The translations under genes and the position numbers were made by a program. A model generated the notes under the pieces. That model saw nothing but the letters and a program-made list of their open reading frames with translations, searched no databases and was not told the origin of the DNA. Positions 3,929 through 28,559 of a stretch of DNA of 29,178 nucleotides are shown here, in pieces. Source of the stretch: a virus; IMG/VR virus record IMGVR_UViG_3300025889_019797, positions 1 through 29,178 of that record, one strand, 5' to 3'. How positions within the stretch are numbered: the stretch's first letter is position 1; every line of letters starts with the position of its first letter.

Positions 3929-5251
3929 TTATTTAAATATATACGTATCCATTTTTGGGACGAGATATTGGGAAGCATTTTTATGCTTAACATTTATATC
4001 TTCAAGTTTATTTATAATTACATCAAAATTAAAAAGATTATATTTTCCTTGATAACTTTCTGTTTCATATAATTGTCCTAATACTTCATTGACATTCATA
4101 ATAAAACCTTGTACTTCTTGATTATTTATATTTTTTAATAAATTATACATTGTAGTTGAAATTACAACATCATTAGATGATATAGTTTCAAGATTATTTG
4201 CATAAATTATTCTTTCACCAAATTCAACAGGATTAAATCCATCAATAATTTCATACCAATGTTGAGTAGTGTAATTCCATCTTTTATTAGCGTAATAATA
4301 AGTATCAAATAATGTTTGATTATATAATTCTAGAACTACATCAGCATCATTTATATAAATTTTATTAAAATATGGTTCTACAAATTTTAAAATATTTAAA
4401 TCTACTCCGGTGTCAATATCAATGTATAATGAAGTATTAAATTTAATTTTATAATCATGTCCAAAATAACCCCATTTACGAATAAATCGTTTTAATTCTT
4501 CTTGATCTGCTTTTGATTGAAGTATATTTTTCTTATCAGCAGAATCAGTTTGTTTAAACCAATCATTTCCTCTACTTGAAACACACGTAAAATGATATAC
4601 ACAAGCATTCCATGATTGAATAGTATTTAAACCACATGCTTTCATTCTAATAATCATATCAGAATCTTCTCTTGAACATCTAAATTGAGTATCAAATCCA
4701 CCTAAAACTTCAAACCATGTATTTTTATAAACAGCAAATGGAGCAAAATGACCATCCATATTAGGTCTGTTTTCTTTTTGTAATTCATTTACAAATTTAT
4801 CAAATTCATCGAATTTGAATTCATCTGGTGTTATACCAAAATCTTTTACAATTTTTTCAGGTGAACCTGGATGTAATGGGGGTTCAATTCGAGCACAAGA
4901 TAAAACTGTATTTTTATCTATATTTTTAGAAATATGTTTATCTAAATCTTTTCCAGCCACCATATCAGATTGTAAGTAACACACGATAGGGTTTGAAGCG
5001 TGATGGAACATAATAGAAACATTTCGTTGACTACCTATAGGAAATTCTGTTTCATTCCTATGAATTTTTAAATTAGGAAATGTTGGTTGTAATTCAAGTA
5101 AATGTTCATAAGTATTTTGATTATCTGAATCGATAAAGATTAATATTTCATGATTTTCTAATTGGGTGTTCTTTTTTAAAGAATTTAATAATAATGTAGT
5201 GTAATCTTTTTCATTTTTAGCAGATGCTATACAAAATGTTATATTTTTCAT
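3929..5251 (-). CDS. Family 2-type glycosyltransferase with C-terminal extension (440 aa)
   Basis: Residues 1-230 form a GT-A nucleotide-sugar transferase domain. It opens with the strand ITFCIASAKNE, has a DSD at 41-43 and a QSDM at 94-97 (metal/sugar-nucleotide site), GGFD at 184-187, and the catalytic-base region RCSREDSDM with Glu-Asp at 195-196. It should transfer a sugar from an NDP donor to a growing glycan in the cytoplasm. The last 210 residues have no motif I recognise and could bind the acceptor. It is the last sugar gene of the operon, overlapping the epimerase gene by 4 bases (ATGA). Donor and linkage cannot be told from sequence. Confidence 0.8.
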   Translation of the reverse strand: MKNITFCIASAKNEKDYTTLLLNSLKKNTQLENHEILIFIDSDNQNTYEHLLELQPTFPNLKIHRNETEFPIGSQRNVSIMFHHASNPIVCYLQSDMVAGKDLDKHISKNIDKNTVLSCARIEPPLHPGSPEKIVKDFGITPDEFKFDEFDKFVNELQKENRPNMDGHFAPFAVYKNTWFEVLGGFDTQFRCSREDSDMIIRMKACGLNTIQSWNACVYHFTCVSSRGNDWFKQTDSADKKNILQSKADQEELKRFIRKWGYFGHDYKIKFNTSLYIDIDTGVDLNILKFVEPYFNKIYINDADVVLELYNQTLFDTYYYANKRWNYTTQHWYEIIDGFNPVEFGERIIYANNLETISSNDVVISTTMYNLLKNINNQEVQGFIMNVNEVLGQLYETESYQGKYNLFNFDVIINKLEDINVKHKNASQYLVPKMDTYIFK

Positions 5252-6042
5252 TTTTGTTGTTTTAATATGTTATAAACTTCTTTTATTCCTTGTTCTAATC
5301 CAATTAAATGGAAAGGTTTTATTAAATGGTTCCCACAATAATCATCACCTTTTTCTTTATCATCTATTATTATATCAACTTTATGATCATCTAAAGAATT
5401 AATAATTTCAGCTATTTGGTTAAGGGTGTATTTTTTTAAATAACTACAATTTATGCTTCGAATAGGAAATTCTTGTTCACGTTGATTAAGTAACCATTCA
5501 ATTAAGGAAACTAAATCTTTTATATAAAAGAAATCCATTTTTTTATCTTGATGGATTTCTATATTTTCTTTATTAATATATCTTATAATATTACTTTTAA
5601 TAAATCTTCGATCTAATTCATTTTCATCAAATACAGCATATATCTTGACATTTATTGATTTTGGATCATTAGCCATTAATTGATTAATAATATGTTTACT
5701 AAATCCATAAGGTGTATTTGCTTTATCTTCTGCCCCTGAGCCGAAATGAATAAATTTATCAAATTTATCTCTACAGCGCATTAAATTATCATACATTAAA
5801 AGATTTGTTAATACAACATCTGGACCTTCAAGTGGGTTAAGTCTATTACCTCCTTTTACAGCAGTATGGATCACAACATCAAAATATTTATTTGAAAAGT
5901 AATGTTCAACAACTTCACGATGAGTAAGATCAAGATCAGCTCTAGATATTAAAGTTATATCATATTTAGAATATAAATAAGAATGAAGGCTTTTAGCAAT
6001 ATAACCACCTCCTCCTGTGATTAATATTTTTAATCTATCCAT
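5248..6042 (-). CDS. NAD-dependent epimerase/dehydratase, extended SDR (264 aa)
   Basis: A Rossmann fold opens the protein with ILITGGGGYIAKSL (GxxGxxA/G variant). The catalytic pair is Y112-xxx-K116 in PYGFSKH, preceded by HFGSGAE, so the usual Ser/Thr lies near residue 102. At 264 residues it is short for an NDP-sugar epimerase (often 300-350). It likely reduces, epimerises or dehydrates a sugar nucleotide or sugar acid made by the neighbouring TPP enzyme, whose gene overlaps its start by 13 bases. The exact reaction is not deducible. Confidence 0.8.
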   Translation of the reverse strand: MDRLKILITGGGGYIAKSLHSYLYSKYDITLISRADLDLTHREVVEHYFSNKYFDVVIHTAVKGGNRLNPLEGPDVVLTNLLMYDNLMRCRDKFDKFIHFGSGAEDKANTPYGFSKHIINQLMANDPKSINVKIYAVFDENELDRRFIKSNIIRYINKENIEIHQDKKMDFFYIKDLVSLIEWLLNQREQEFPIRSINCSYLKKYTLNQIAEIINSLDDHKVDIIIDDKEKGDDYCGNHLIKPFHLIGLEQGIKEVYNILKQQK

Positions 6043-7757
6043 TGTATATTTTTTAATTCACCAGGTATAAATTTACCATTTTCATCTAATGAAGCTACTA
6101 CTTTAGGTTCATGAAACTCTTCAGGATCAGTAAATACTTCTAAAACACATGGTCCATCTTGTGATAAGAAGTCTTTTAATACTTTTTCTATATCTTGATT
6201 TGTTTCAATACTATAATAAGGCAAATCATATGCTTTAATTACTTTTTCAAAATCAGGAAATGATACTCCACTATTTTTTTCAGATGCTACAAAACGACCA
6301 TCAAAAAACGTTTTTTGAGATATTTTAATTGAAGTGTAACCATCATTATTTAATAGAATAAGTTTAATAGGAAGATTATAATGTTTCATAGTTTGTAACT
6401 CATGAATATTTAAATGTAAACTTCCATCCCCTTCAATACAGACTATTTTATGATGTGTAGCAGCTCCTAAAGCCGCGGGTAAACCATACCCCATTGGGGC
6501 GCAACCAGTATTAGTAATTAATCTTTGTTTACCATGTAAATCCATTACCTGCATAGTAACAACATTAGCTGATCCATCACTAGTAACAATATGGTGATCA
6601 GTAGGTATTATATTAGATAATTTTTCTATAAAAGCATAATGGCTAGTGTATTCTGTTTTATTCCTATGTTTGGGTAATACTCTGGGTTCACAAGACCATT
6701 CAAAACATTCATCTAACCATTGTGAATCAGTTTGGGGTAAATTTTGTGGGTATAATAAATCTAAAAATATTTTAGCATCAGACTGTACTCTTAAATCTGT
6801 AAATAAAGTTGGTTTGTTTAATTCATTACGATCTATATCTATATGAACTTTATAAGCTTGTTTAGCGAATCCTTTAAAATTATATCCTGTTTGTCTAACA
6901 TATAATCTACTACCTATAGTTAAAAGAAAATCACATTCACTTAAAAGATTATTTGCTCCTATTTGAGCATGTGTTCCAAATCTACCACAATAATATTTAT
7001 AATCTTCATTTACAATATCATTCCCATTAACTGCTGTTATTACAGGTATATTTGTTTTATTTAATATTTTATGAAGTATATCAACTCCTCCACTTAAACG
7101 AACCCCATTACCTACAATCATAAGTGGTTTTTTAGCTTGATTCCATTTTTTTCGAATTCGCTCTATTTCTGATGGAAGTGGAGTTGGGGTTATTAAATCA
7201 TTTTCCCATCCTATTAATTCATTCGGTTCAATATTAGTTGATTGTATATTTAATGGAATATCAATCCAAACGGGACCTGGTCTTCCTGAGGTGGCTAAAG
7301 CACATGCTTTTTCGAGATGATATTTTATTTCAGAAGCTTCATTGACTTGAACAGCATATTTAGTCATGTTTTTAACAGACTCAATTATATTAAATTCTTG
7401 ATCACCTAATTGCCTTAAAGGTAAACCTGTATAATTTGTAGTCATTTCTTTATTTACTTGCCCACTAATATAAATTACAGGAATTGAATCTAACCAGTTA
7501 CATAAAGTACCTGTTAAAGCATTTGTACCTCCAGGACCACTTGTAATAAGACAAGCTCCTAATTTATTATTCATTCTAGCATAACCTTCAGCTGCTAACG
7601 CTGCTGCTTGTTCATGATGTGTTGCTACATAATTTACCCCTTCAGTTGTTCCTAAAGAATCAATTAAAAATATACAACCTCCTCCAGACACAGTAAATAC
7701 TGTATCAACTCCATAATTATCTCTTAAAAATTGAATAACATAATCAGATAATCTCAT
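6030..7757 (-). CDS. Thiamine-diphosphate enzyme, acetolactate synthase-like (575 aa)
   Basis: A full-length member of the TPP-dependent decarboxylase/synthase family. The PYR domain carries the cofactor-activating Glu49 in HHEQAAA. The central domain is present. The PP domain has the metal/TPP motif GDG at 443-445 running to NN at 470-471. Family members condense a pyruvate-derived two-carbon unit onto an acceptor. No acetolactate synthase small subunit or other branched-chain amino-acid gene is nearby. Instead it lies between an epimerase and a sugar-phosphate-cyclase-like gene with 13- and 14-base overlaps. I infer a role in making a branched or unusual sugar rather than valine. Confidence 0.85.
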   Translation of the reverse strand: MRLSDYVIQFLRDNYGVDTVFTVSGGGCIFLIDSLGTTEGVNYVATHHEQAAALAAEGYARMNNKLGACLITSGPGGTNALTGTLCNWLDSIPVIYISGQVNKEMTTNYTGLPLRQLGDQEFNIIESVKNMTKYAVQVNEASEIKYHLEKACALATSGRPGPVWIDIPLNIQSTNIEPNELIGWENDLITPTPLPSEIERIRKKWNQAKKPLMIVGNGVRLSGGVDILHKILNKTNIPVITAVNGNDIVNEDYKYYCGRFGTHAQIGANNLLSECDFLLTIGSRLYVRQTGYNFKGFAKQAYKVHIDIDRNELNKPTLFTDLRVQSDAKIFLDLLYPQNLPQTDSQWLDECFEWSCEPRVLPKHRNKTEYTSHYAFIEKLSNIIPTDHHIVTSDGSANVVTMQVMDLHGKQRLITNTGCAPMGYGLPAALGAATHHKIVCIEGDGSLHLNIHELQTMKHYNLPIKLILLNNDGYTSIKISQKTFFDGRFVASEKNSGVSFPDFEKVIKAYDLPYYSIETNQDIEKVLKDFLSQDGPCVLEVFTDPEEFHEPKVVASLDENGKFIPGELKNIQWID

Positions 7758-8760
7758 AAATTTGATTTAAAACTTTTATTAATATATTAGTATTTTCTAT
7801 ATTTTCCAAGAACGGTTTATCATTTATTAAAACCATCGTTAATTTACCTGTACTTTTTTTATCTGATTTGATTATTTCTAGGAGTAAATCTAAATCAAAC
7901 CATTCTTGTTTAAAGGTCAAATTATTATTTTTTATTAATGATATACCTTTTTCAATAATTGAATCATAGTTGGAAACATTATAACCTAATTCTTTAGATA
8001 TCATTACTGCCACCATACTTCCTATAATAACAGCTATACCATGAGGAATAATATTTTCAGATGTTGATTCTAAAGCATGACCAAAAGTATGACCAAAATT
8101 TAAAAATTTACGTTCACCCTTATCAAATTCATCTCTAGATAAAATATCAATTTTATATTTTAACCCATCATGAATCATAGATTCTATAGATGATGCTGGG
8201 TCAAAATCAAGTATTTTATTTTGTAATATATGGAATTTAAAAATTTCTCCTAATCCACTAGTATAATCTAATTTAGAAAGAGTTTGAGTAAATTTAGGGT
8301 AAACTATAATATCTGTTGGTGGATAAAAAGTACCAATTATATTTTTCCGGTCTACAAAATTAATAGAAGTTTTACCCCCAACACAACTATCAGCTTGAGC
8401 TAAAAGTGTTGTTGGTATAAGAGTATATTGAATTCCTCTACAATAAACTGAAGCACAAAATCCTATAAGATCTTGAAGAACACCACCACCAATTACTACT
8501 AATTTAGTTTGTATATTAGCTCTACGTTCTGTTAAATTTTGTAATACCCTAGCAGTACCAGTATAACTTTTAATCGCTTCAGAACTAGTTAATATAATAT
8601 TATTATCTCGTTGTAAAGATGGATAAAGGTTATTTACATTATCATCAATAAATGTAATAGTATTAGGTTGATCAATATAATATTCTATTTCTTGTATTGT
8701 ATCAACAAAACTTAATTTATAATCTGATATTTTTGATTTTATTTCTAATATGTTGTGCAT
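7744..8760 (-). CDS. 3-dehydroquinate synthase-like sugar phosphate cyclase (338 aa)
   Basis: It matches the dehydroquinate synthase superfamily along its length: NAD-binding GGGVLQD (91-97), the loop IPTTLLAQADSCVGGKTSIN, GEIFK, then NFGHTFGHALE. The three expected metal ligands are present as Glu172, His224 and His240, and the active-site residues Lys175, Lys203, Arg217, Asn221 and His228 also line up with AroB. The ring-closing chemistry on a sugar phosphate should therefore work. No other shikimate gene is near. The neighbours are an SDR (16-base overlap) and a TPP enzyme (14-base overlap), so the product may be a cyclitol or a higher sugar. True AroB activity is the alternative. Confidence 0.85.
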   Translation of the reverse strand: MHNILEIKSKISDYKLSFVDTIQEIEYYIDQPNTITFIDDNVNNLYPSLQRDNNIILTSSEAIKSYTGTARVLQNLTERRANIQTKLVVIGGGVLQDLIGFCASVYCRGIQYTLIPTTLLAQADSCVGGKTSINFVDRKNIIGTFYPPTDIIVYPKFTQTLSKLDYTSGLGEIFKFHILQNKILDFDPASSIESMIHDGLKYKIDILSRDEFDKGERKFLNFGHTFGHALESTSENIIPHGIAVIIGSMVAVMISKELGYNVSNYDSIIEKGISLIKNNNLTFKQEWFDLDLLLEIIKSDKKSTGKLTMVLINDKPFLENIENTNILIKVLNQIYEII

Positions 8761-9386
8761 GAATAACCTCCATCTATTATAATATTTTGACCACTTATAT
8801 AGCTATTATCTATTGTAAGTTGATAAGTTAATTTAGCTACTTCTTCAGGCAATCCTAATCTTCCTATAGGTATTTGTTTTGATAATAATGCTATTTCTTC
8901 TTTAGTATTATTTTGATAAGTTAAATCAGTACCTATAAACCCTGGGGAAATAGTGTTAGTTAAAATTCCTTCATGAGCGTATTCAGCTGTTAATGATTTA
9001 GTAAGGGAGTGTAGAGCACTCTTACTAGCACTATAAGCTGCTCGTTTTGGTTTAGATGTATCAATCCAAATACTTCCGATATTTACAATTCGCCCATACT
9101 TCTGATCAACCATATAAGGTAAACAATGTTGTATTATTTGAAGAGGTGAGAAGTAATTAACTCGCATCACCTCTTCATCTGAAATATCTTTAATAAAGGT
9201 TAAGGGGTTTATTCCTGCGTTATTTATTATAATATCGAAATATCCACCAACTCCTTTAAAATGTAACGGTTTTGATAAATCTAATATATCTCTGGTAGGA
9301 GCATTTACTTGATGTCCTTTTGATAAAAAAAGATCAACTATGGCTTTTCCAATTCCTTTTGAACCCCCAGTAACCAGTACTCTCAT
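8745..9386 (-). CDS. Short-chain dehydrogenase/reductase (213 aa)
   Basis: A classical SDR: TGGSKGIG at residues 6-13 binds NAD(P), NNAG lies at 55-58, and the catalytic tetrad is Asn77, Ser105, Tyr118 and Lys122 (YSASK). The C-terminus ends with the usual SGQNIIIDGG. At 213 residues it is slightly short, with a trimmed region after the nucleotide-binding site. It probably oxidises or reduces a hydroxyl or keto group on the product of the neighbouring cyclase or aldolase. Its start codon overlaps the aldolase stop by 1 base, and its end overlaps the cyclase gene by 16 bases. Confidence 0.85.
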   Translation of the reverse strand: MRVLVTGGSKGIGKAIVDLFLSKGHQVNAPTRDILDLSKPLHFKGVGGYFDIIINNAGINPLTFIKDISDEEVMRVNYFSPLQIIQHCLPYMVDQKYGRIVNIGSIWIDTSKPKRAAYSASKSALHSLTKSLTAEYAHEGILTNTISPGFIGTDLTYQNNTKEEIALLSKQIPIGRLGLPEEVAKLTYQLTIDNSYISGQNIIIDGGYSCTTY

Positions 9387-10186
9387 TATTTAAAAGAAAC
9401 AGATTGATTGATTCTATCTTGAATCATTTGGATTCGTTTAATATCTTGATTAGCTAATGTTGCATAATATTCATTTTTAGCTTTTAACCATTCATATTCA
9501 AACATTTGAGCTTTAGATAATGCTCTAGATAAGTTTTTTAAAGACACAGATGGATCAAAAATAGCATAACGTGTTTCAAATTTATCTAATAATCCTTCTG
9601 AATGTAATGTTTTTAAAAAATCTAATGAATCAGTTGATACAGCTCCACCTAAACAAGCTTTAAGTCCTTTTCGTTTTGCATTTTGAAATACAGAACGAGC
9701 CATATCTAATACTTCTTTACTATTAACATAATTACGATCTTTACCCATTGATGATACTAAATCAACACGACCAACAGTAACCCCATATAACTCTTTAGCT
9801 TCATCTGAATGAATCATTTCAACGGCATTTTGTACAGCAGTAATAGTTTCAATATTAACATTAAGTTGAAGTGATGAACGAATATCCTCAGGGATATATG
9901 TTCGAGTAGCTTGAATAAATTTTTTAAGACCAAATTCAGATTCAACCATAGGTGCTACTAATCCTTTTACCCCAATGATAGAAGCATCTTTTAAATCTCT
10001 AATTGCTTCAGGACCACCTATTTTTAAAGTAATTTTAGTTTTAGCTTGATTACAAACTTCTTTTAATCGAACAGTTTCATTAAATAAAGCCCCTTCATCT
10101 TCAAAACTAGTTTTAATACCTATTAAACCTTCATTTTCAATCAGATCAGTAAGGATTTTTACACATTTAAATTCTCTTGCATTCAT
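9386..10186 (-). CDS. HpcH/HpaI-family aldolase (citrate lyase-like, 266 aa)
   Basis: A TIM-barrel class II aldolase of the HpcH/HpaI/CitE group. The metal ligands are visible as Glu113 (NVNIETITA) and Asp142 (VGRVDLVSSMG), with the barrel strand GVKGLVAPMVES before them. Family members join pyruvate or a similar keto acid to an aldehyde, or cleave such adducts. It lies between the RmlB-like gene (3-base gap) and the SDR (1-base overlap), inside the unusual-sugar part of the operon. I infer that it helps build a chain-extended or acidic sugar precursor. Its C-terminal 50 residues are helical and outside the usual core. Confidence 0.8.
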   Translation of the reverse strand: MNAREFKCVKILTDLIENEGLIGIKTSFEDEGALFNETVRLKEVCNQAKTKITLKIGGPEAIRDLKDASIIGVKGLVAPMVESEFGLKKFIQATRTYIPEDIRSSLQLNVNIETITAVQNAVEMIHSDEAKELYGVTVGRVDLVSSMGKDRNYVNSKEVLDMARSVFQNAKRKGLKACLGGAVSTDSLDFLKTLHSEGLLDKFETRYAIFDPSVSLKNLSRALSKAQMFEYEWLKAKNEYYATLANQDIKRIQMIQDRINQSVSFK

Positions 10187-10189
10187 AAT

Positions 10190-11158
10190 TTACCAAATAA
10201 ATTTATTTTTATAATAATTAATTATACTATCTATTTCCTCAGAGAACAATTTTTTTGGTTCCCATCCTAAAGATTTAATTTTAGAATCATCTAAAGCATA
10301 ACGGACATCTTGCCCTTTTCTATTACAAGAAAAATCAATATATGTTTCAACATCATGAAAATCTTCCCAATTAATAACTCCTAAATATTTAGTAATAACA
10401 GCCTTTACAGTCTCAATATTTTGTTGTTCAAAACCACCTGCTACATTATAAATTTCACCTACTTGACCTTTTTCAATTAATGTAATCACAGCTTCAGCAG
10501 TGTCAGCGGCATGTAACCAATTTCTATAAGGTAAACCTTGATTATGAAGTGGAATTTTACGTTCTAAACTTAATAACTTTACCGCTTTAGGGATTAATTT
10601 TTCAACATATTGACCAATACCATAATTATTTGTTGGTCGAATAATCATATAAGGAATATTATGTGTTCTACCCCAAGCCATAACTAACATATCAGCTGCT
10701 GCTTTTGTAGCTGAGTATGGGTTAGATGGTTTTAATAAATGATTTTCATCATGGGCACCTTCTTCAATATCACCATATACTTCATCTGTACTAAAATGGA
10801 GTAATATTGGTTTTTGGGTATTTTCTCCTCTATGATTTTTGATTAATTCAAGTAAATTATGAACTCCATCTATATTTGATTTAACAAATTCAGTACTGCT
10901 AGCAATTGAATTACCAACATGAGTTTCAGCAGCTGTATTAATTACAAAATCACAGTCATATAAAAATTTTAATTCATTAATATCACAATGAACAAAAGAA
11001 AAATTAGGGTATGATTTAAATTCTTCTAATAAATCTTTATTAGCAGCATAAGTCATTTTATCAACTCCTTTTACATACCATCCTTTTTTAAGACACGCCC
11101 TAGTCACATAAGATCCAATAAAACCAAGACATCCAGTCACATATACTACTTTTATCAT
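10190..11158 (-). CDS. RmlB-like NDP-sugar 4,6-dehydratase (322 aa)
   Basis: An extended SDR closely patterned on dTDP-glucose 4,6-dehydratase: GFIGS at 12-16, AAETHVGNSI, the catalytic STDEVYG with Thr-Asp-Glu at 124-126, Y148-xxx-K152, NNYG, EKLIP, and a C-terminal RKGQDVRYALDD..LGW. The Asp-Glu pair and Tyr/Lys needed for 4,6-dehydration are present, so a 4-keto-6-deoxy hexose product is likely. It is about 40 residues shorter than enterobacterial RmlB, and RmlA, RmlC and RmlD are absent, so the substrate may be another NDP-sugar. It is packed between the GT-A transferase gene and the aldolase gene. Confidence 0.8.
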   Translation of the reverse strand: MIKVVYVTGCLGFIGSYVTRACLKKGWYVKGVDKMTYAANKDLLEEFKSYPNFSFVHCDINELKFLYDCDFVINTAAETHVGNSIASSTEFVKSNIDGVHNLLELIKNHRGENTQKPILLHFSTDEVYGDIEEGAHDENHLLKPSNPYSATKAAADMLVMAWGRTHNIPYMIIRPTNNYGIGQYVEKLIPKAVKLLSLERKIPLHNQGLPYRNWLHAADTAEAVITLIEKGQVGEIYNVAGGFEQQNIETVKAVITKYLGVINWEDFHDVETYIDFSCNRKGQDVRYALDDSKIKSLGWEPKKLFSEEIDSIINYYKNKFIW

Positions 11159-11159
11159 T

Positions 11160-12125
11160 TTATAAAAAATTATTTATTTTTAAATATTCATCCACTTTAT
11201 CTAAAAATACTTTTGGTTTTCCTTTACCTTGGGTATGACCAATAAAATGAGTAATTCGAGATTCTAAAGCTGGGCCCCATCCATTTAATTCATTTTCAGG
11301 GCTTAATTCACCATATTTGGGATGATGACCAAAATTAGGTATCACAAAATACTCTTCAGAATTTAATATATGAGGATTATTTTTAGAAAATACAGTATTC
11401 ATTAAACCAAAAAACGATTGTTGTTGAGTATCAATTAAAAATCTTTTAGGTCCAAAAAATTCTTCTCCATTTTCATCTCTTACTGAGGCGTAATCAAATA
11501 AATCTAATATAAATTTAAATCTATCTTTAGATAGAAATTCATCATAAATACTTAAATCAATTCCTTGAAAACCAGCATTAAATCCTTGAACTTGGGGATT
11601 TCTATTAATATAAATATCTCTAAATCCTTCTCCAAACTGTTCTAATAATTTTGGAAAGAGTACTTTATCACAATTAGCATTTAGTGGTTCTGAAATTAAT
11701 ACTGGGGTGTTAGATAAAATTAAATCGCAGATATGTTTAAAATCATCATTGATTAAAATATCATCATCATAAATTAAATAATAATGTTTTAATTTTACCC
11801 TACGAAGATAATGAGCCATTATAATAAAATAAGCTGCTTTCCATGTTCTAAATTTATCTGTATAATCTAAATCATAAAATTCAGTTACATAGTTATCAAA
11901 AAATTCTTTATCATATGAGTAAAGATTTTCAATATGTTTATCAATTAATTTAGCCCATTTATCATCATCACCTAAATCACCCTCAATTACATTATCCCAT
12001 AATATATGGAATTCAATTTTTACATCCGGATAAAGAGATTTTATTTTAGATTGTAATTGATGTAAAGCAAAAAATGATTGTTTATTTTTAGCTCTCATCA
12101 GATTAGATATAATTATTTCTTTCAT
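11160..12125 (-). CDS. GT-A glycosyltransferase, possibly GT8-like (321 aa)
   Basis: The pattern YYLIYDDDILINDDF puts a DDD metal-binding site at 120-122, and a later GFNAGFQGID plus HFIGHTQGKGKP near the C-terminus resembles the donor-site ends of GT8-type enzymes. The middle is Phe/Tyr/Asp-rich. It is a soluble, presumably cytoplasmic sugar transferase acting on a lipid-linked or protein-linked acceptor. Single-base gaps separate it from the GT11 gene upstream and the RmlB-like gene downstream. Family placement is by motif only and could be wrong. The transferase call is firmer. Confidence 0.65.
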   Translation of the reverse strand: MKEIIISNLMRAKNKQSFFALHQLQSKIKSLYPDVKIEFHILWDNVIEGDLGDDDKWAKLIDKHIENLYSYDKEFFDNYVTEFYDLDYTDKFRTWKAAYFIIMAHYLRRVKLKHYYLIYDDDILINDDFKHICDLILSNTPVLISEPLNANCDKVLFPKLLEQFGEGFRDIYINRNPQVQGFNAGFQGIDLSIYDEFLSKDRFKFILDLFDYASVRDENGEEFFGPKRFLIDTQQQSFFGLMNTVFSKNNPHILNSEEYFVIPNFGHHPKYGELSPENELNGWGPALESRITHFIGHTQGKGKPKVFLDKVDEYLKINNFL

Positions 12126-12126
12126 T

Positions 12127-12966
12127 TTAATTTTCGTTGATTATATGTTTCCACTCTGATGGGTAATAATTTGAATTAATATGTGACCAAGGACTATATG
12201 ATTTTAAATAATTAGCCGGGCATGTTATTTTTTTATTAGGGTTATAATTTCTATAGGCTGCCCACCAACTGTAAGAGCTATTAGCTATAATCTGATGGTC
12301 ACATAAACTCATTAAGATTAAATCAACATAATCAGAACCAGGTTCTATAAATGTAACCATTTCTCCTTCAATTAGATTTTCTTTACACCATTCAATATCA
12401 TTTGAAAAAATTACAAAATGATACTTTTCAATCTCAGAGATATACTCTTGTAATGCTTCAGAATAATATTCATTTGTTAATTTACAAAAATGGTCATGTT
12501 GAGGTAATAAATAATCTCCTCTACGAACATGAATAGCTACCATTTCTTTTCCCTCAACTTTAATATTATTATAAATCTGTTTAGCAGCATTAAAATGTAT
12601 AGTACCCCAGTTCCAATTTAATACATCTTGAGAATATTTTGGATGCCAATAATGAAATAAATCAAAACGATTTTCAATATTATAATTTTTATTTGGATCT
12701 ATTCTTTGAATTAAAGTTTCATCTACAATTTTAGAATCATCAGGCCTAATATTAATAAAATCATTAAAAAAATTATCAGGAGCAACTATAATAGGAATAT
12801 CTACTAACTCAGCAAATTTAAACCCATATCCTTGAGATAAACTAGATTCAGAAAAAATAATCTCATGATTAGTCTCTTTTGCAACAGCATACAAACTAGC
12901 ATACTGTTGCAATTGAGAACCTAAATTACCTGATCCACCTATAGTTTTAAAGGTAATATAACTCAT
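12127..12966 (-). CDS. GT11-family alpha-1,2-fucosyltransferase-like protein (279 aa)
   Basis: The GDP-binding motif HVRRGDY at 146-152 and the downstream block DLILMSLCDHQIIANSSYSWW are the signature of GT11, whose known members transfer L-fucose from GDP-fucose in alpha-1,2 linkage. The N-terminal GNLGSQLQQYA segment also fits (normally GRLGNQLFQYA). GDP-L-fucose would be supplied by gmd and fcl, which lie just upstream in the same operon. The stop of the upstream dehydratase overlaps its start by 1 base. The acceptor is unknown. Confidence 0.85.
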   Translation of the reverse strand: MSYITFKTIGGSGNLGSQLQQYASLYAVAKETNHEIIFSESSLSQGYGFKFAELVDIPIIVAPDNFFNDFINIRPDDSKIVDETLIQRIDPNKNYNIENRFDLFHYWHPKYSQDVLNWNWGTIHFNAAKQIYNNIKVEGKEMVAIHVRRGDYLLPQHDHFCKLTNEYYSEALQEYISEIEKYHFVIFSNDIEWCKENLIEGEMVTFIEPGSDYVDLILMSLCDHQIIANSSYSWWAAYRNYNPNKKITCPANYLKSYSPWSHINSNYYPSEWKHIINEN

Positions 12967-14312
12967 TACAGATTTTCAAAGAATTTATCAACTACCTGTC
13001 CTATATACTCAATTTGTTCATCTGTAATACCTGGATAAACTCCTAGGAAAAATGTATCTTGAGTAGTTTTAGTAGCTATTGGAAACATATTAACCGGATC
13101 ATTATAATGTTCAAACATTTCAAGACCACTATATGCTGGGTGGAATAAAGCATTTCCTGTAAAATATGAACGGGTTTGGATTTTAGCGTTTTCTAAATGT
13201 TCAACTAAATCAATTTTTTGGAATGGAACATTATCTTTTAATGTTAATAAGAAACCAAACCAACTAACTTCTGCTTTGTCAAGCGCTTTAGGTAAATGGA
13301 AATATTGATCATATTTTTTAAAGATATCATACATTTTATTAAAATTCTCTTTTCTACGAGCATGCATAAGCTCTAATTTATCTAATTGAGCTAATCCAAT
13401 AGATGCTTGAATTTCAGTTGGTTTTAAATTATACCCAATTTCATCAAATACATAACGGTGATCATAGTTAATTTCAGGATATTTAGGGAACCAACTATTC
13501 ATTCTCATTCCGCAAGCAGTACCACAAGTGACATTTCCAGGTTTAATAGTATTACAATAACATGCACGACCCCAATCACGTAAAGATGCTAAAGCCATTC
13601 TATGCCTAGCCGGATTACAAGCTACAAATCCTCCTTCACCTGTTGTCATATGGTGAGCTGGGAAGAATGAGCATGTTGAAATTTTACCAAATGAACCTAA
13701 TGGTTGGCCATCCCAAGATGAACCTAAAGCATCACAACAATCTTCTAAGAAAATTAATTTATATTTTTCTACAATAGCCATTAAACGATCCATATCAGGT
13801 GGATTACCTAATACATGAGCAAAAATAATACCTTTAATCTCTTTATTAGTATCTTCTTCAAGTAGTTTTTCTACTTGATCTAAATTAAGGTTTAGATTTG
13901 GTAATTCAACATCCACAAATACAGGTTCAAAACCATTTTGAATTAATGGATTAATAGTAGTAGGAAAACAAACTACAGGAGTAATAAATTTACTTCCTTT
14001 AGGTAAATTACCTCCTCTTTTTGTTCGTAAAAGAGATACCATTAATAAGTTAGCTGAACTACCTGAATTAACAATAATACCATCTGATTTTCCTAAATGA
14101 GGAGCAAATTGTTTTTCAAATTTTCTTCCGTTTTCACCTAAAATAAACCATCCTTTTAATAATGAATCTACAGCTGCTGTGTATTCATCATCATTAAAAA
14201 ATGGACCTGAATATTGAACCCAATCAACTCCAGGTGTCCATGTTTTGTTAGTTTGTTGTTCTTTAACAAATTCACTAACTAAATCTAAAATTTGTTGTTT
14301 TTTATTACTCAT
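12966..14312 (-). CDS. rfbH: RfbH-like PLP/iron-sulfur NDP-4-keto-6-deoxyhexose 3-dehydratase (448 aa)
   Basis: A DegT/DnrJ/EryC1/StrS fold protein with SGSSANLL and EDCCDALG (Asp191 for the PLP ring nitrogen). The usual PLP lysine is replaced: the segment reads SFFPAHH with His220, as in the 3-dehydratases RfbH (E1) and ColD, so it should remove the C3 hydroxyl rather than transfer an amino group. Four cysteines at 251, 253, 263 and 267 match the E1 [2Fe-2S] cluster region, but the spacing is CxC-x9-CxxxC rather than CxC-x2-C-x7-C. E1 needs an E3 reductase, and none is seen here. Substrate could be the GDP-sugar from Gmd or the product of the RmlB-like enzyme. It has its own candidate promoter. 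Confidence 0.8.
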   Translation of the reverse strand: MSNKKQQILDLVSEFVKEQQTNKTWTPGVDWVQYSGPFFNDDEYTAAVDSLLKGWFILGENGRKFEKQFAPHLGKSDGIIVNSGSSANLLMVSLLRTKRGGNLPKGSKFITPVVCFPTTINPLIQNGFEPVFVDVELPNLNLNLDQVEKLLEEDTNKEIKGIIFAHVLGNPPDMDRLMAIVEKYKLIFLEDCCDALGSSWDGQPLGSFGKISTCSFFPAHHMTTGEGGFVACNPARHRMALASLRDWGRACYCNTIKPGNVTCGTACGMRMNSWFPKYPEINYDHRYVFDEIGYNLKPTEIQASIGLAQLDKLELMHARRKENFNKMYDIFKKYDQYFHLPKALDKAEVSWFGFLLTLKDNVPFQKIDLVEHLENAKIQTRSYFTGNALFHPAYSGLEMFEHYNDPVNMFPIATKTTQDTFFLGVYPGITDEQIEYIGQVVDKFFENL

Positions 14313-14331: not shown

Positions 14332-14367
14332 CTAAAGATAAAAAATATAATTTAAATAATCAAGCTT
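14332..14367 (-). promoter_or_regulatory. Candidate Bacteroidota-type promoter inside sugar operon
   Basis: On the minus strand AAGCTTG (14367-14361) is followed after exactly 20 bases by TATCTTTAG (14340-14332). This is the -33/-7 layout of Bacteroidota sigma factors. The -33 box covers the end of gmd, and the 47-base gap before the RfbH-like gene is the only real gap in the 16-kb operon. Confidence 0.55.
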
Positions 14368-15334
14368 TATTATAAAAATTTAACCAATACTCAATCATTT
14401 CATCTAACATACTTTCAAAAGTATATTCAGGTTTCCATCCTGTTGCTTCTTTTAATTTAGAAGAATCACCTTTAAGTTTGTGTAACTCTTCGGGTCTAAA
14501 AAATTTAATATCTGCTCTTACGTAGTCTTTCCAGTTCATATTTAATTTAGAAAATACATACTCACATAGATCTTGTACTGAATGAGATATTCCTGTTGCA
14601 CAAACAAAATCTCCTGGTTGGTCAAGTTGGAGAAGCATCCACATTGCCTTAACATAATCTTTAGCATGCCCCCAGTCTCGAGTAGCAGTTAGATTACCTA
14701 AACGAAGTTCATTTGATAGACCTAATTTAATTTTAACAGCTTCTTTTACTACCTTATTTGTAACAAAATTAGTACCTCTTCTTGGTGATTCGTGATTAAA
14801 CAGTATTCCATTTGAAACAAACATTCCATAAGAATGTCTATAATTTCGACTAATATTATATGAAAATACTTTAGCACATCCATAAGGTGAAACTGGGCTC
14901 ATTGGTGTTGTTTCCCTTTGAAATCCATCTTCATCTATATTATTGCCAAACATCTCAGAAGAAGATGCTTGATATATTTTACAATCAGGTTTAATTAATT
15001 TAACAGCTTCTAATAAATTTAAAGTCCCTATACCAGTAACATTAGCTGTATAAAGTGGTTGATCAAAAGAAATTCTGACATGAGATTGAGCAGCTAGATT
15101 ATAAATTTCATCTGGTTTAATTTCATCTATAATCCTAATTAATGATGATAGATCTGTTAAATCAGCATAATGTAATTTTAATTTATTAAAAACATTATTT
15201 AATCTAGATGTTTGATTTTCAGATACTGAATTTCTTTTTAGTGTGCCATGGATTTCATATCCTTTTTCTAAAAGGAACTCAGCTAGATAAGATCCATCCT
15301 GCCCATTTATTCCTGTTATTAGTGCTTTTTTCAT
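14360..15334 (-). CDS. gmd: GDP-mannose 4,6-dehydratase
   Basis: Gmd converts GDP-D-mannose to GDP-4-keto-6-deoxy-D-mannose, the first step to GDP-L-fucose and to several deoxy sugars. The sequence has the family's TGINGQDGSYLAEFLL cofactor loop, NLAAQSHV, the active-site SSSEMFG with Glu127, Y151-xxx-K155 (YGCAK), and NHESPRRGTNFVT, all highly specific for Gmd. Length 324 fits. The start overlaps the stop of fcl by 4 bases (ATGA), so the two enzymes of the pathway are coupled. GDP-mannose must come from the host. Confidence 0.95.
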   Translation of the reverse strand: MKKALITGINGQDGSYLAEFLLEKGYEIHGTLKRNSVSENQTSRLNNVFNKLKLHYADLTDLSSLIRIIDEIKPDEIYNLAAQSHVRISFDQPLYTANVTGIGTLNLLEAVKLIKPDCKIYQASSSEMFGNNIDEDGFQRETTPMSPVSPYGCAKVFSYNISRNYRHSYGMFVSNGILFNHESPRRGTNFVTNKVVKEAVKIKLGLSNELRLGNLTATRDWGHAKDYVKAMWMLLQLDQPGDFVCATGISHSVQDLCEYVFSKLNMNWKDYVRADIKFFRPEELHKLKGDSSKLKEATGWKPEYTFESMLDEMIEYWLNFYNKA

Positions 15335-16248
15335 TTACCTTTATTTACTAAATATTCATATGTTAATTTAATCCCTTGATGTAATGAAATTGGATTAAAA
15401 TCTGGTATTTTGTTTTTTAATGATTCAATAGAAACATCTTTTCTAAATTGTCCGTTTGGTTTTGAAGTATCCCAAATAATATTTAAATGTTTTGAATTAC
15501 AAGCATCTAATGCTATATCAACCATTTCTTTAATAGATAAATTTTCAGGTGTAGCTATATTAAAATTACCTTCTATTTTATTTTTCACTATATAAACTAT
15601 TATCTTAGCAAAATCATCAGCATGTATAAATTGTCTTAATGGAGTACCATCACCGAATAATGTAATATGATTATCTCCATTTGTATTAGCATCGTATATT
15701 TTTTTGATTAACGCTGTGATAAAATGGCTATTTGATTCATTATCTTTATCATCTAAACCATATAAATTGCAAGGAATTAAATATTGATATTTAGTTCCAT
15801 ATTGTTTATTATAAGCATCTATTTGAACAGCTAATGATCTTTTAGCATACCCGTACGAAAAATTAGTTTGAGTAGGTGGTCCTAAATGTAAATCCTCTTC
15901 TTTCATAGGATAGTTTTCTACTACATCTGGGTAAATGCAAGTACTTAATATTCCTATAAAATGCTTGGTGTTTGTTTTTTTAGCATATTCTAATAAAAGA
16001 GTATTCATTAAAACATTTTCAGTAAAATACTCAGCTGGTTTAGCTATATTATCTATTATTCCTCCTACTTTAGCTGCTAGATGGATTACTATATCAGGTT
16101 TATGTTTTAAATACATTAATCCAACTCCATTTTCAGTTGTTAAATCAAAGTCTTTAGAAGATAAATAAACAGCTTCTGGTAAATATTTTTGTAAGGCTTT
16201 ACCTACTAGACCACTTCCTCCTGTGACTACAATTTTAGATTGTGTCAT
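15331..16248 (-). CDS. fcl: GDP-L-fucose synthase (epimerase/reductase)
   Basis: Fcl (WcaG) epimerises and reduces GDP-4-keto-6-deoxymannose to GDP-L-fucose using NADPH. Counting from the ATG at 16246-16248 the protein has 305 residues: cofactor loop VVTGGSGLVG (7-16), Ser102/Cys104 in LSTCIYP, Y132-xxx-K136 (YGYAK), and NSHFITAL carrying the catalytic His. An upstream in-frame ATG at 16344 would add 32 residues unlike any Fcl and overlap the previous gene by 110 bases. The chosen start gives a 14-base overlap typical of this operon and places the Rossmann strand right at the N-terminus. Confidence 0.93.
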   Translation of the reverse strand: MTQSKIVVTGGSGLVGKALQKYLPEAVYLSSKDFDLTTENGVGLMYLKHKPDIVIHLAAKVGGIIDNIAKPAEYFTENVLMNTLLLEYAKKTNTKHFIGILSTCIYPDVVENYPMKEEDLHLGPPTQTNFSYGYAKRSLAVQIDAYNKQYGTKYQYLIPCNLYGLDDKDNESNSHFITALIKKIYDANTNGDNHITLFGDGTPLRQFIHADDFAKIIVYIVKNKIEGNFNIATPENLSIKEMVDIALDACNSKHLNIIWDTSKPNGQFRKDVSIESLKNKIPDFNPISLHQGIKLTYEYLVNKGK

Positions 16249-16858
16249 ATAACTGATTTTGTTTTTCTTGTTTTTCAATTGTTTTAGGGTGATATAGAGC
16301 AAAATATTCAATATCTGGTAACACTGTGTATGTTTTAAAACCATCTAGGCGTTCATGTACTTTATTCACCCATTTTATTTCAGATGTGTTTTTCCAAATA
16401 CGCCATTGAAAATCAGGCCAATTAACCCAACCTTCTTCATTTACTCTCCAACCCCATTTTGCTATATGAGTTGCTGTTAAACCCTTTACAGTGTTTACTC
16501 GTGGTACAAGAAAAACATCCATTTCAGGATTAATTTCTAATAATTCAGGTAATGTTTTAATTAAATCTTCTGATGGGATTTCATCAGCATCAATTTGAAA
16601 AATATAATCACCATTACATAAACTAGTTAATTTATTTTTCCAATCTGCAAAATGACGATCAAATTTTCCTTTATGCCATAAAAATTCTCCATTTATAGAG
16701 TGGGTGCGGAGAAAATTCTCCACTTCGGGGTCACCATTTACTTCATCATATAATATCACTATATTGTCTTGAGTACGTTTGTGTTGAAGTAAAAAGTTCA
16801 CTAAACGTTGAATTTCTATAAATTCATTACAGACTGTGATTGCATAACTTATTTTCAT
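16235..16858 (-). CDS. Family 2 glycosyltransferase, WaaE/KdtX-like (207 aa)
   Basis: A compact GT-A enzyme: the N-terminal strand SYAITVCNE, a DADE metal site at 90-93 within YIFQIDADEIP, and a Trp-rich region (WGWRV..WPDFQWRIWKN). This pattern matches small GT2 proteins of the LPS-core WaaE/KdtX type, known to add glucose or heptose to core sugars. It is shorter than the usual roughly 250 residues and lacks the C-terminal membrane-associating part. The gene lies 5 bases after the 154-aa unknown and overlaps fcl by 14 bases. Confidence 0.8.
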   Translation of the reverse strand: MKISYAITVCNEFIEIQRLVNFLLQHKRTQDNIVILYDEVNGDPEVENFLRTHSINGEFLWHKGKFDRHFADWKNKLTSLCNGDYIFQIDADEIPSEDLIKTLPELLEINPEMDVFLVPRVNTVKGLTATHIAKWGWRVNEEGWVNWPDFQWRIWKNTSEIKWVNKVHERLDGFKTYTVLPDIEYFALYHPKTIEKQEKQNQLYDTI

Positions 16859-21333: not shown

Positions 21334-21660
21334 TTATCTAAATTTATTTAAATACTCAGGGGATACTTCTTTTTCTCCAATAGTATATGCTTTTCCTTTC
21401 ATTACTACACCTAAAACTTCCATCATCCCGCTTACAGCATCTTCTAATGTTTCTTCTTCAGGTATTTCAACTCCGTCTATTTCTATGCCACTTAAATCTA
21501 TTTCGTTTTTAAGGAAAGTTTTAAGTTTATTTGCTAATTGACTAAAAAATGCTGAGTTAGATTCTGTATCAAAATCATCATATTCATCTAATTTAGCTTT
21601 GTACTCACCTTCTGTGATAATGCCTGAAAGCATTTGCATACGTAGTTGTTCTTGTGTCAT
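21334..21660 (-). CDS. Small protein with N-terminal GIITE module (108 aa)
   Basis: Residues 6-26 (LRMQMLSGIITEGEYKAKLDE) match the N-termini of the proteins at 21773-22447 and 22684-23310 almost residue for residue. The rest is different: an acidic middle and a short globular-looking end (VLGVVMKGKAYTIGEKEVSPEYL). The sequence around ITE-G fits the (L/I)xE cleavage rule of the T4 prohead protease, so this may be a targeting peptide for a protein packed in the capsid. This is inference. The start overlaps the upstream 38-aa gene by 4 bases (ATGA). Confidence 0.7.
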   Translation of the reverse strand: MTQEQLRMQMLSGIITEGEYKAKLDEYDDFDTESNSAFFSQLANKLKTFLKNEIDLSGIEIDGVEIPEEETLEDAVSGMMEVLGVVMKGKAYTIGEKEVSPEYLNKFR

Positions 21661-21773
21661 TTTATTTTTTTATATTCGTTAATAAGCTGTTCATTGCGTT
21701 TAATCATTTTAAGACGTTTTGCTAAATTACCTCTATTACGTTTTGGTTTCCCTTCTTTTTTTGCTTTAGCCAT
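21657..21773 (-). CDS. Very small, highly basic protein (38 aa)
   Basis: The ATG at 21771-21773 opens 38 codons ending in TGA at 21657-21659. The start overlaps the previous stop by 1 base (TAATG) and the stop overlaps the next start by 4 bases (ATGA), a perfect fit between two coding genes. The product starts MAKAKKEGKPKRNRGNLAKR and is about 40% Lys plus Arg. It could bind nucleic acid or be an internal head peptide. No family recognised. Confidence 0.6.
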   Translation of the reverse strand: MAKAKKEGKPKRNRGNLAKRLKMIKRNEQLINEYKKIK

Positions 21774-22447
21774 TATTTATTTTTTAATTCGTCTTCTTTT
21801 TTAGCTAATTTTTTAACATAATCACCCCATGCCCCTCCATAAGTACTTTTACCTGTTTCTGGGTTGTAATTTATTTGAAATGTGTCTTTATCTGAAATTG
21901 TTTTATTATATACTGAATCCGCTCCTAATCTTGTATCATATGATTGTTCAAATGAATCATCAAATTCATCATTATCACTAGTATATCTTGTATATCTATC
22001 AGTCCCAAATTTTTCTCCACTATCATATTCACCTTTAGTTTGATATTTTTTTCCTATTGCTTTTCCAGTTCTATCAAAATAAGTTGTTTCAATGGTTTGT
22101 TGAAGTTTAATTAATTCTGGTTTGGTAAGTTCTTTGTTTTCTCCTTCAAAACTTTGATAAATACTATCTTCTGGTTGTATATTAAAAAGGGTATCTATTT
22201 TTTTGGATGTTGATTTATTTTCTAAATCTTTTAAAAGATTATTAGCTTGTTTTAATTCTATTTCTGTTGGTTTATAATCAGAAGCTATATCTATAACTTG
22301 GGCTTTTGCTTCACCTCCTAATAATGTCCCTAAAGCTAATAATACTCCAGCAGTTATATCTTTTAAACCTTCATCCAATTTTTGTTTATACTGGTTTTCA
22401 GTAATGATACCAGCTAAAAATTGCATCCTAAGTTGTTCTGAGGTCAT
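21773..22447 (-). CDS. GIITE-module protein with acidic body (224 aa)
   Basis: Residues 6-26 (LRMQFLAGIITENQYKQKLDE) form the shared N-terminal module. A Leu/Gly-rich hydrophobic stretch follows (about residues 33-45, GVLLALGTLLGG), possibly a signal or membrane-inserting segment. The remaining 175 residues are hydrophilic, rich in Asp, Tyr, Thr and Lys, and of low complexity (YDTRLGADSVYNK and similar). No enzyme motif is visible. A virion-internal or ejected protein is one reading. It is separated from the 77-aa gene upstream by 1 base. Confidence 0.65.
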   Translation of the reverse strand: MTSEQLRMQFLAGIITENQYKQKLDEGLKDITAGVLLALGTLLGGEAKAQVIDIASDYKPTEIELKQANNLLKDLENKSTSKKIDTLFNIQPEDSIYQSFEGENKELTKPELIKLQQTIETTYFDRTGKAIGKKYQTKGEYDSGEKFGTDRYTRYTSDNDEFDDSFEQSYDTRLGADSVYNKTISDKDTFQINYNPETGKSTYGGAWGDYVKKLAKKEDELKNK

Positions 22448-22448
22448 T

Positions 22449-22682
22449 TTATTTGATAATTCCTGCTCGTATTTGGAGCATTTTTATTTCTTCAATATCT
22501 TCAGGAGAACCAACAATTAGATCATAATCTTTCATAGTTAATGTTTTTCCTGAAAGGGCTAAATCAATTGCGTTTTCAGTTACATTATGTAAATCCATGT
22601 CAGTTTGAGCATCTTCTCTAGCATATTCGAGTAAACGAATAAATAGAGGAATGTCTAATGTGATTGTGTCTCTTTGGTTCAT
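22449..22682 (-). CDS. Small protein with C-terminal LQIRAGIIK tail (77 aa)
   Basis: A 77-aa protein, mostly helical and acidic (MNQRDTITLDIPLFIRLLEY at the start). From memory such small acidic proteins recur in marine phages without a known role. Its last nine residues, LQIRAGIIK, are nearly identical to the end of the unrelated 315-aa protein at 25358-26305 and resemble the MQxLAGIITE module of its neighbours. One-base gaps on both sides place it within a run of module-bearing genes. Confidence 0.65.
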   Translation of the reverse strand: MNQRDTITLDIPLFIRLLEYAREDAQTDMDLHNVTENAIDLALSGKTLTMKDYDLIVGSPEDIEEIKMLQIRAGIIK

Positions 22683-22683
22683 T

Positions 22684-23310
22684 TTAGTAGTTGTTTTTTT
22701 CTTCTACTTCTTTACCTTCTTCTAAATCATCAAACATATCGTTTATAATAGATTGGGCTAGATCTTCAAAATCGATTGAATTGTTACCTTTACCCATATT
22801 CCAAACATGATCTAAAGCACTTACTAAATAACTAATTCTATCATTAGTATTTGGATTAACCATAGCTTCTTCTACTTCTTTACCTTCTTCAACTTCTTTT
22901 TCTACTTCATTTAAGTCATATTTTTGACTTAAAAAATGTTCAAAAGCATCTTCGTAATCTGCTTTAGCGCGAGATGGGATTTGATTAATTGCTCCAACTC
23001 CAACTATTCCACCAGCAATATAATGCTCGTTAAGTGAATCTTTTTCTTCTTGTACTTCACCATATGAAAGATCACCAACATGTTTACCAATCATGTTGAA
23101 TGGGTTCCATTTTCCTAATTCTTTTCCATCGTTATCTTTAGCCTTCACATAACCAGATTCATTGTCAAATTTAGTTCCTTCAGGAAATGATTTTTTCCAT
23201 TCATCAAAATTATCATATAATCCTTTTCTAAGTTCTTCAACTTTTTCTTTATATTCGCTTTCTGTAATTACACCTGAAAGCATTTGCATACGTAGAGTTT
23301 CTTTATTCAT
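22684..23310 (-). CDS. GIITE-module protein with EEGKEVEE repeats (208 aa)
   Basis: The N-terminal module reads LRMQMLSGVITESEYKEKVEE (residues 6-26). The body contains KWNPFNMIGKHVGDLSYGEV, a short Gly/Ile-rich segment (HYIAGGIVGVGAI), and two copies of EEGKEVEE, one in the middle and one near the C-terminus, encoded by a perfect 24-base direct repeat. The second half is helical. No catalytic motif seen. The two acidic repeats could come from slippage or unequal exchange. Confidence 0.65.
   Translation of the reverse strand: MNKETLRMQMLSGVITESEYKEKVEELRKGLYDNFDEWKKSFPEGTKFDNESGYVKAKDNDGKELGKWNPFNMIGKHVGDLSYGEVQEEKDSLNEHYIAGGIVGVGAINQIPSRAKADYEDAFEHFLSQKYDLNEVEKEVEEGKEVEEAMVNPNTNDRISYLVSALDHVWNMGKGNNSIDFEDLAQSIINDMFDDLEEGKEVEEKNNY
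22699..22890 (-). repeat. Perfect 24-bp direct repeat inside the 208-aa gene
   Basis: 22699-22722 and 22867-22890 are identical and encode the acidic peptide EEGKEVEE twice, 168 bases apart in the same frame. This is an in-frame internal duplication that could expand or shrink by recombination. Confidence 0.8.

Positions 23311-26599: not shown

Positions 26600-28555
<1,956 letters not shown>

Positions 28556-28559
<4 letters not shown>

Follow-up and report, generated by a model that had tools for sequence, protein, structure and literature searches.

The 29,178-nucleotide stretch of DNA analyzed here (the window) is positions 1 to 29,178 of the IMG/VR record IMGVR_UViG_3300025889_019797, which is classed as a virus, has a G+C content of 28.9%, and contains a clamp loader gene of phage type (phrog_168). 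Its minus strand carries a module of sugar-biosynthesis genes that we interpret, with moderate confidence, as a phage-borne copy of a bacterial route to a sugar akin to yersiniose and erwiniose (nucleotide activated, 3-deoxy, and branched at C4), in a version whose branch is made into a carbocycle. The module includes a thiamine diphosphate (ThDP)-dependent carboligase (TPP), and in both viruses and bacteria the cyclase (CYC) and its short-chain dehydrogenase partner (SDR) are exchanged for a protein of HAD type. The first-pass annotation had described five overlapping genes acting as a unit and proposed that they make a branched, acidic, or carbocyclic residue. All five open reading frames (ORFs) are on the minus strand at the coordinates first given, the overlaps ALD/SDR, SDR/CYC, CYC/TPP, and TPP/EPI are 1, 16, 14, and 13 bases, and the gene order is conserved, so that the unit is real; it is also larger than first thought, with two further genes belonging to it.

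9386 to 10186, minus strand: ALD, aldolase of the HpcH/HpaI family (class II pyruvate aldolases), 266 residues (PF03328)
8745 to 9386, minus strand: SDR, short-chain dehydrogenase paired with the cyclase, 213 residues (PF00106)
7744 to 8760, minus strand: CYC, dehydroquinate (DHQ)-synthase-like cyclase of the TIGR04425 clade, 338 residues (TIGR04425, DHQ-synthase fold, tree)
6030 to 7757, minus strand: TPP, ThDP-dependent carboligase related to the YerE-like JanthE, 575 residues (match to PDB 8rph, tree)
5248 to 6042, minus strand: EPI, extended SDR/RmlD-like reductase or epimerase, 264 residues (PF01370)
10190 to 11158, minus strand: DEH, nucleoside diphosphate-glucose 4,6-dehydratase-like protein, 322 residues (TIGR01181, motifs)
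12966 to 14312, minus strand: RFBH, RfbH-type sugar 3-dehydratase using pyridoxal or pyridoxamine phosphate, with His in place of Lys and iron-sulfur cysteines (PRK15407)

With RFBH and the 4,6-dehydratase-like DEH in the module, its product probably derives from a 3-deoxy-4-keto sugar nucleotide rather than being a free cyclitol.

Enzyme classes of the module

TPP was initially called acetolactate-synthase-like, which holds for its ThDP superfamily but not for its closest relative. Its best match in the PDB was 8rph (367.8 bits; next match, 250.1), the structure of JanthE. This YerE-like enzyme, which transfers acyl groups onto ketones, is 36% identical to TPP over 538 residues. TPP also grouped with JanthE against the acetolactate synthases with 100/100 support, in a tree where JanthE is the sole YerE-like reference and both it and the acetolactate synthases form long branches. 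The score against the acetolactate synthase profile TIGR00118 was 352.5 bits, under the cut-off of 538.35. By sequence, TPP is closer to the YerE-like carboligase than to acetolactate synthase, and genes for a 3-deoxy-4-keto sugar nucleotide, as expected around a YerE-like enzyme, are present in the cluster (RFBH in the window; RfbF, RfbG, and RfbH in bacteria). Glu49 and the GDG (443 to 445) and NN (470 and 471) motifs, pointed out at first pass, are invariant in 41 of 41 distinct copies (40 viral and 1 bacterial). TPP matches phrog_11199 (E value of 5.4e-99), a family of unannotated function that could probably be named as a YerE-like or acetolactate-synthase-like ThDP enzyme.

Among NCBIfam profiles CYC matched TIGR04425 best, with 306.9 bits compared to 240.0 for aroB, and it lies under both curated cut-offs (400 and 305, respectively). 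Its structural model has the DHQ-synthase fold, with a predicted local distance difference test score (pLDDT) of 92.3. Glu172, His224, His240, Lys175, Lys203, Arg217, and Asn221, listed at first pass, are all present and, together with Lys130, Lys139, Asn140, and His228, are invariant in 32 of 32 distinct viral copies. The metal and catalytic residues of AroB are therefore in place, yet CYC falls outside both the AroB clade and the aroB cut-off. The phylogeny of the cyclase against AroB had been set at first pass as the test of its reading, and no grouping with AroB was found: the cyclases of the viruses, of the ALD-linked bacteria, and of other TIGR04425 loci split from 17 AroB references with a support of 100/99. 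An earlier tree that included three very long rows gave this split weaker support. CYC shares with TIGR04425 the clade, the motifs DSC[IVL]G[GS]KTS and DEFD, and the SDR partner, which matches PF00106 with an E value of 1.5e-36 and has invariant Tyr118 and Lys122. A ring-forming cyclase that is not AroB and a ThDP carboligase thus point, as first suggested, to an unusual branched and probably carbocyclic residue, while we found no support for its being acidic.

It is very improbable that the phage carries copies of AroB and acetolactate synthase that boost the host supply of aromatic or branched-chain amino acids. CYC and TPP are distant members of these two superfamilies, but both score under the respective cut-offs, CYC lies outside AroB, TPP groups with JanthE, and the neighboring genes are glycan genes. 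We consequently rejected shikimate or amino acid auxiliary metabolism on scores, tree, and context.

ALD matches PF03328 with 50.1 bits (cut-off, 25), and its AlphaFold model (pLDDT of 91.9) has HpaI class II pyruvate aldolases as best PDB matches (Foldseek, 1.4e-9 for HpaI). Glu113 and Asp142 are invariant in 43 of 43 copies and were assigned as metal ligands from the motif, without superposition. ALD thereby shows the Pfam family, TIM-barrel fold, and Glu/Asp metal ligands of the class II pyruvate aldolases, which produce 4-hydroxy-2-oxo acids, and we propose that it makes a phosphorylated 4-hydroxy-2-oxo acid donor. The motif corresponding to the catalytic Arg70 of HpaI, aligned by eye, seems to carry an invariant Lys55. 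ALD had no match in the public phage collection searched, and a distant relative in Ilyobacter sits in a catabolic-looking operon that is uninformative for this module.

RFBH, which lies upstream and three genes beyond DEH, passes the PRK15407 cut-off (442.3 bits; cut-off, 423) and has both the catalytic His220 in place of Lys and the iron-sulfur cysteines Cys193, Cys251, Cys253, and Cys267, so that all three marks of an RfbH sugar 3-dehydratase are present. All 36 DegT homologs examined, which come from the window, 34 viral rows, and 1 bacterial row, have the catalytic His, and the iron-sulfur cysteines are missing in some of these proteins. DEH scores 292.2 bits against TIGR01181, under the cut-off of 365.1, with TDE and YxxxK invariant (36/36); in most viral loci, its gene closely precedes that of ALD. 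EPI matches PF01370 (E value of 5.7e-17) with Tyr112 and Lys116 invariant (38/38), an EPI-like gene is found in several bacterial operons of both the CYC and the HAD types, and we propose that EPI reduces the new side-chain ketone.

Exchange of the SDR and cyclase genes for a HAD-type gene

A search of IMG/VR returned 9 loci with CYC as the query and 52 with ALD. The order DEH-ALD-SDR-CYC-TPP-EPI is repeated in most of these loci, on dozens of viral contigs. We rejected a chance neighborhood on the strength of this recurrence, and the co-occurrence of the gene set elsewhere, on which the first-pass annotation also depended, proved to be widespread in viruses and bacteria. In a second viral version, the place of SDR and CYC between ALD and TPP is taken by a protein of 131 residues in which HAD-type motifs (DFDG...T...DD) are recognizable. 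Of the viral loci, 47 have complete flanks, the window and some near-duplicate contigs among them; SDR and CYC are present in 37 and the HAD-like gene in 10, with none having both or neither. A T4-type gp23 capsid gene is present in 6 of 36 records (the window and 35 related contigs searched). Thymidylate-synthase-family genes occur in 10 of the 36, and PHROGs labels the two examined as thymidylate synthase, providing no evidence of hydroxymethylation that would point to hypermodified DNA as the destination of the sugar. One contig (G826, locus L056) has frameshifts in ALD, TPP, and gp23, possibly due to sequencing errors.

The module is phage encoded, as first stated, in that it lies in a virus record and recurs in viral contigs, but a phage-only module was rejected given that operons of Bacteroidota and Pseudomonadota carry it too. 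ALD relatives were found in 9 of 395 Bacteroidota and 8 of 398 Pseudomonadota genomes. The TIGR04425 cyclase is present in 8 of 296 Bacteroidota genomes and adjoins ALD in 5 of the 8 (hypergeometric P = 1.7e-7), where the operon order is TPP, SDR, CYC, ALD. RfbH and/or RfbF plus RfbG lie in the fetched stretch of four of these five operons; the fifth, on a 7.8-kb contig (L101), lacks all three in its stretch. The cyclase of one operon scores 451.9, over the TIGR04425 cut-off, and its RfbF, RfbG, and RfbH all pass their own cut-offs. Two other operons (G295 and G094) have rfbF, rfbG, rfbH, TPP, a NagD-like HAD gene, and ALD, in Arsenicibacter rosenii the HAD is a different one, and both versions are present in Pseudomonadota. 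Of 14 bacterial loci, 8 have SDR and CYC, 6 have HAD, and none has both (Fisher P = 3.3e-4, with kinship ignored), so that the two blocks exclude each other in every one of the 47 complete viral loci and the 14 bacterial loci. One of the six HAD loci (L121) showed no TPP homolog in the stretch retrieved. A radical SAM/SPASM-type protein lies beside ALD in Pseudomonadota HAD loci (L122, 7341 to 8465, called with Pfam; L123, 2663 to 3766, and L121, 8198 to 9364, called from a similar sequence start).

The bacterial CYC and HAD types interleave on the TPP tree, and the swap must therefore have occurred several times. The closest pair, G067 (CYC) and G295 (HAD), share 86% identity in TPP, 83% in ALD, and 80% in RfbH, while the SDR-CYC/HAD block differs. 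Since TPP, ALD, and RfbH are nearly unchanged, CYC or HAD should act after the TPP step or independently of it. Most simply, both versions would use one acceptor sugar, one donor, and one coupling step, and the exchanged block would determine how the chain is finished.

The swap also bears on the possibility that two independent pathways lie side by side and feed one glycan, one making a YerE-type branched sugar (RfbH, TPP, and EPI) and the other a separate carbocycle (ALD, SDR, and CYC). The SDR-CYC pair does occur in TIGR04425 loci without ALD or TPP, and pyruvate suffices as a donor for YerE (PMC12247030). ALD, however, stays with TPP in loci that lack CYC and so belongs with TPP and not with CYC alone, which makes this arrangement improbable. 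In three such TIGR04425 loci (L096, 9267 to 11703; L097, 8971 to 12722; and L100, 9404 to 11814) the SDR-CYC pair is kept, TPP and RfbH are absent, and SIS-domain isomerase, Gfo/Idh- and phosphoglycerate-dehydrogenase-like, and cytidylyltransferase-like genes are found instead, along with an HpaI-type aldolase in L097 and L100 (gene names were assigned by eye, except for the SIS domain of L096). These loci apparently represent a second carbocycle pathway.

Proposed pathway and alternatives

From enzyme classes and a gene context that are observed, we infer the following substrates, order of steps, and product. DEH and RFBH (RfbF, RfbG, and RfbH in bacteria), whose classes are established, would supply a 3-deoxy-4-keto sugar nucleotide, which in bacteria would be cytidine diphosphate (CDP)-4-keto-3,6-dideoxyglucose by the known pathway. 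ALD would join pyruvate to a phosphorylated aldehyde, yielding a phosphorylated 4-hydroxy-2-oxo acid, and TPP would decarboxylate this acid and couple the chain to the C4 ketone of the sugar nucleotide by YerE/ErwE chemistry, so that a tertiary alcohol forms and the side chain carries a ketone. CYC, working as DHQ synthase does, would then eliminate the phosphate and cyclize the chain, and SDR would reduce the ring ketone, whereas in the alternative loci, where the swap itself is observed, the HAD(-like) phosphatase would strip the phosphate and leave the branch open. EPI would carry out a final reduction or epimerization before a glycosyltransferase attaches the sugar to a host or viral glycan. 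If the aldehyde were erythrose 4-phosphate, the outcome would be a six-membered ring and a C12 sugar, the decarboxylated chain being arranged as in 3-deoxy-D-arabino-heptulosonate 7-phosphate (DAHP) with the sugar replacing the carboxylate.

A phosphorylated ALD product is suggested by the fact that a HAD phosphatase and a DHQ-synthase-type cyclase both dispose of phosphate, the former by hydrolysis and the latter by elimination and ring closure. We placed ALD before TPP, followed by CYC and SDR or HAD and then EPI, because ErwE prefers 4-hydroxy-2-oxo acids, which class II pyruvate aldolases produce. ErwE, a member of the YerE-like subclass, accepts such acids but not pyruvate for coupling to CDP-4-keto-3,6-dideoxyglucose (PMC12247030). 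The two-carbon transfer proposed at first pass is therefore unlikely, since the aldolase is nearly always beside the YerE-like enzyme and a longer donor of the ErwE type fits better.

An alternative would start from a cyclitol acid: ALD makes a DAHP-like heptulosonate phosphate, CYC turns it into a dehydroquinate-like ketone that SDR reduces, TPP adds a pyruvate-derived two-carbon unit to the cyclic ketone, and the deoxysugar genes serve another residue. All DHQ-synthase residues are kept in CYC, including Lys203 and Arg217, and SDR-CYC pairs without TPP or RfbH exist, two of the three being near an HpaI-type aldolase; moreover, cyclic ketones can serve as acceptors for YerE-like enzymes, and YerE uses pyruvate as a two-carbon donor (PMC12247030). 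Replacement of SDR and CYC by HAD with ALD and TPP nearly unchanged is, however, difficult to reconcile with CYC producing the substrate of TPP, and RfbF, RfbG, and RfbH lie within the same bacterial operons. We consider this route unlikely, albeit the most serious of the competing explanations.

Several observations weigh against the 4-C-branched sugar that we favor. The functions of all members are predictions from sequence, modeled structure, and gene context. In AroB the counterparts of Lys203 and Arg217 bind the DAHP carboxylate, and with every checked DHQ-synthase residue retained in CYC, its substrate may still bear a carboxylate, before decarboxylation. The window cyclase, as noted, lies under the TIGR04425 cut-off, and the TPPs of two loci (L124 and L126) are on a very long branch. 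The phage HAD-like protein was assigned from motifs alone, having no Pfam or NCBIfam match and a weak PHROGs match labeled phosphoheptose isomerase. In viruses the TPPs of the CYC and HAD versions form separate clades, and the substrates of the two viral versions may therefore differ. No viral locus has an RfbF or RfbG homolog. Finally, many loci are near duplicates or kin, so that Fisher values overstate the independent evidence.

We tentatively go one step further, although here we consider the odds to be somewhat against us, and suggest that a ThDP enzyme elongates a nucleotide sugar at C4 with a phosphorylated 4-hydroxy-2-oxo acid made in the same pathway, after which a DHQ-synthase-type cyclase builds a carbocycle on the sugar. 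The resulting ring-branched sugar (about C12) would have an exchangeable end module, phosphatase for an open chain and SDR plus cyclase for a ring, common to viruses and two bacterial phyla. If true, this would assign a role to the cyclase family, so far only a hypothetical one in the NCBI listing, explain the aldolase in some branched-sugar clusters, predict sugars with a cyclohexane-type ring hanging on a deoxysugar, and mean that viruses carry most of an unusual sugar pathway. The chemistry of the phosphatase/cyclase swap is directly testable on two closely related bacterial operons.

Surrounding genes and known systems

The module is embedded in a glycan cluster, in which GT2c, whose gene overlaps EPI by 4 bases, is a candidate for the transferase of the product.

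3929 to 5251, minus strand: GT2c, family 2 glycosyltransferase (PF00535, 34.7 bits)
11160 to 12125, minus strand: GTx, 321-residue protein with no Pfam or NCBIfam match, conserved beside DEH in some relatives (homologs in L008, L010, and L041)
12127 to 12966, minus strand: GT11, family 11 (fucosyltransferase-type) glycosyltransferase of the surrounding cluster (PF01531, 93.2 bits)

GDP-mannose dehydratase-like and fucose-synthase-like genes are at 14360 to 16344; the fucose-synthase-like ORF (15331 to 16344) overlaps the next glycosyltransferase by ∼110 bases, and its true start is thus probably internal (MTQSKIVVTGG). Elsewhere in the window, GroEL and GroES-like genes are adjacent (26600 to 28559), and a tRNA-Leu (taa) lies on the minus strand at 1552 to 1637 under a probably spurious ORF (1403 to 1675). 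Three neighboring proteins (21334 to 21660, 21773 to 22447, and 22684 to 23310) have in common an N-terminal stretch resembling MTxEQLRMQxLxGIITExxYKxKxxE, and two others (22449 to 22682 and 25358 to 26305) end in LQI[KR]AGIIK; both are possibly tags for virion targeting or processing.

Searches of the literature on TIGR04425, dehydroquinate synthase in carbocyclic O-antigens, and phage branched sugars returned nothing useful, and a paper on bradyrhizose yielded no biosynthesis genes. The enzymes AroB, 2-deoxy-scyllo-inosose synthase (DOIS), and 2-epi-5-epi-valiolone synthase (EEVS) act on free sugar phosphates. They have the DHQ-synthase fold and catalytic residues in common with CYC, which scores 85 bits with DOIS, 77 with EEVS, and 149 with the best AroB, making DOIS and EEVS the more distant, while AroB is excluded by the tree. 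TIGR04425 (AroB-related putative sugar phosphate phospholyase [cyclizing]) is named by NCBI only as a hypothetical equivalog; its bacterial relatives pass the cut-off and pair with an SDR, as CYC does, whereas the phage clade is divergent and under the cut-off, and in some other TIGR04425 loci a SIS isomerase and a CMP-type transferase are present and the TPP enzyme is missing. JanthE (8rph), the solved structure closest to TPP by sequence, makes tertiary alcohols from ketones and carries a CDG motif where the phage TPPs retain GDG. No cyclase was found in a branched-sugar pathway among those described. The erwiniose and yersiniose A pathways, in which ErwE and YerE act on CDP-4-keto-3,6-dideoxyglucose, resemble the present module in RfbF-RfbG-RfbH (in bacteria), the His-type RfbH (in the phage), the YerE-like ThDP carboligase, and the reductase; unlike in those pathways, the carboligase here has an HpcH/HpaI-type aldolase nearly always beside it and is accompanied by either a phosphatase or an SDR and a DHQ-synthase-like cyclase.

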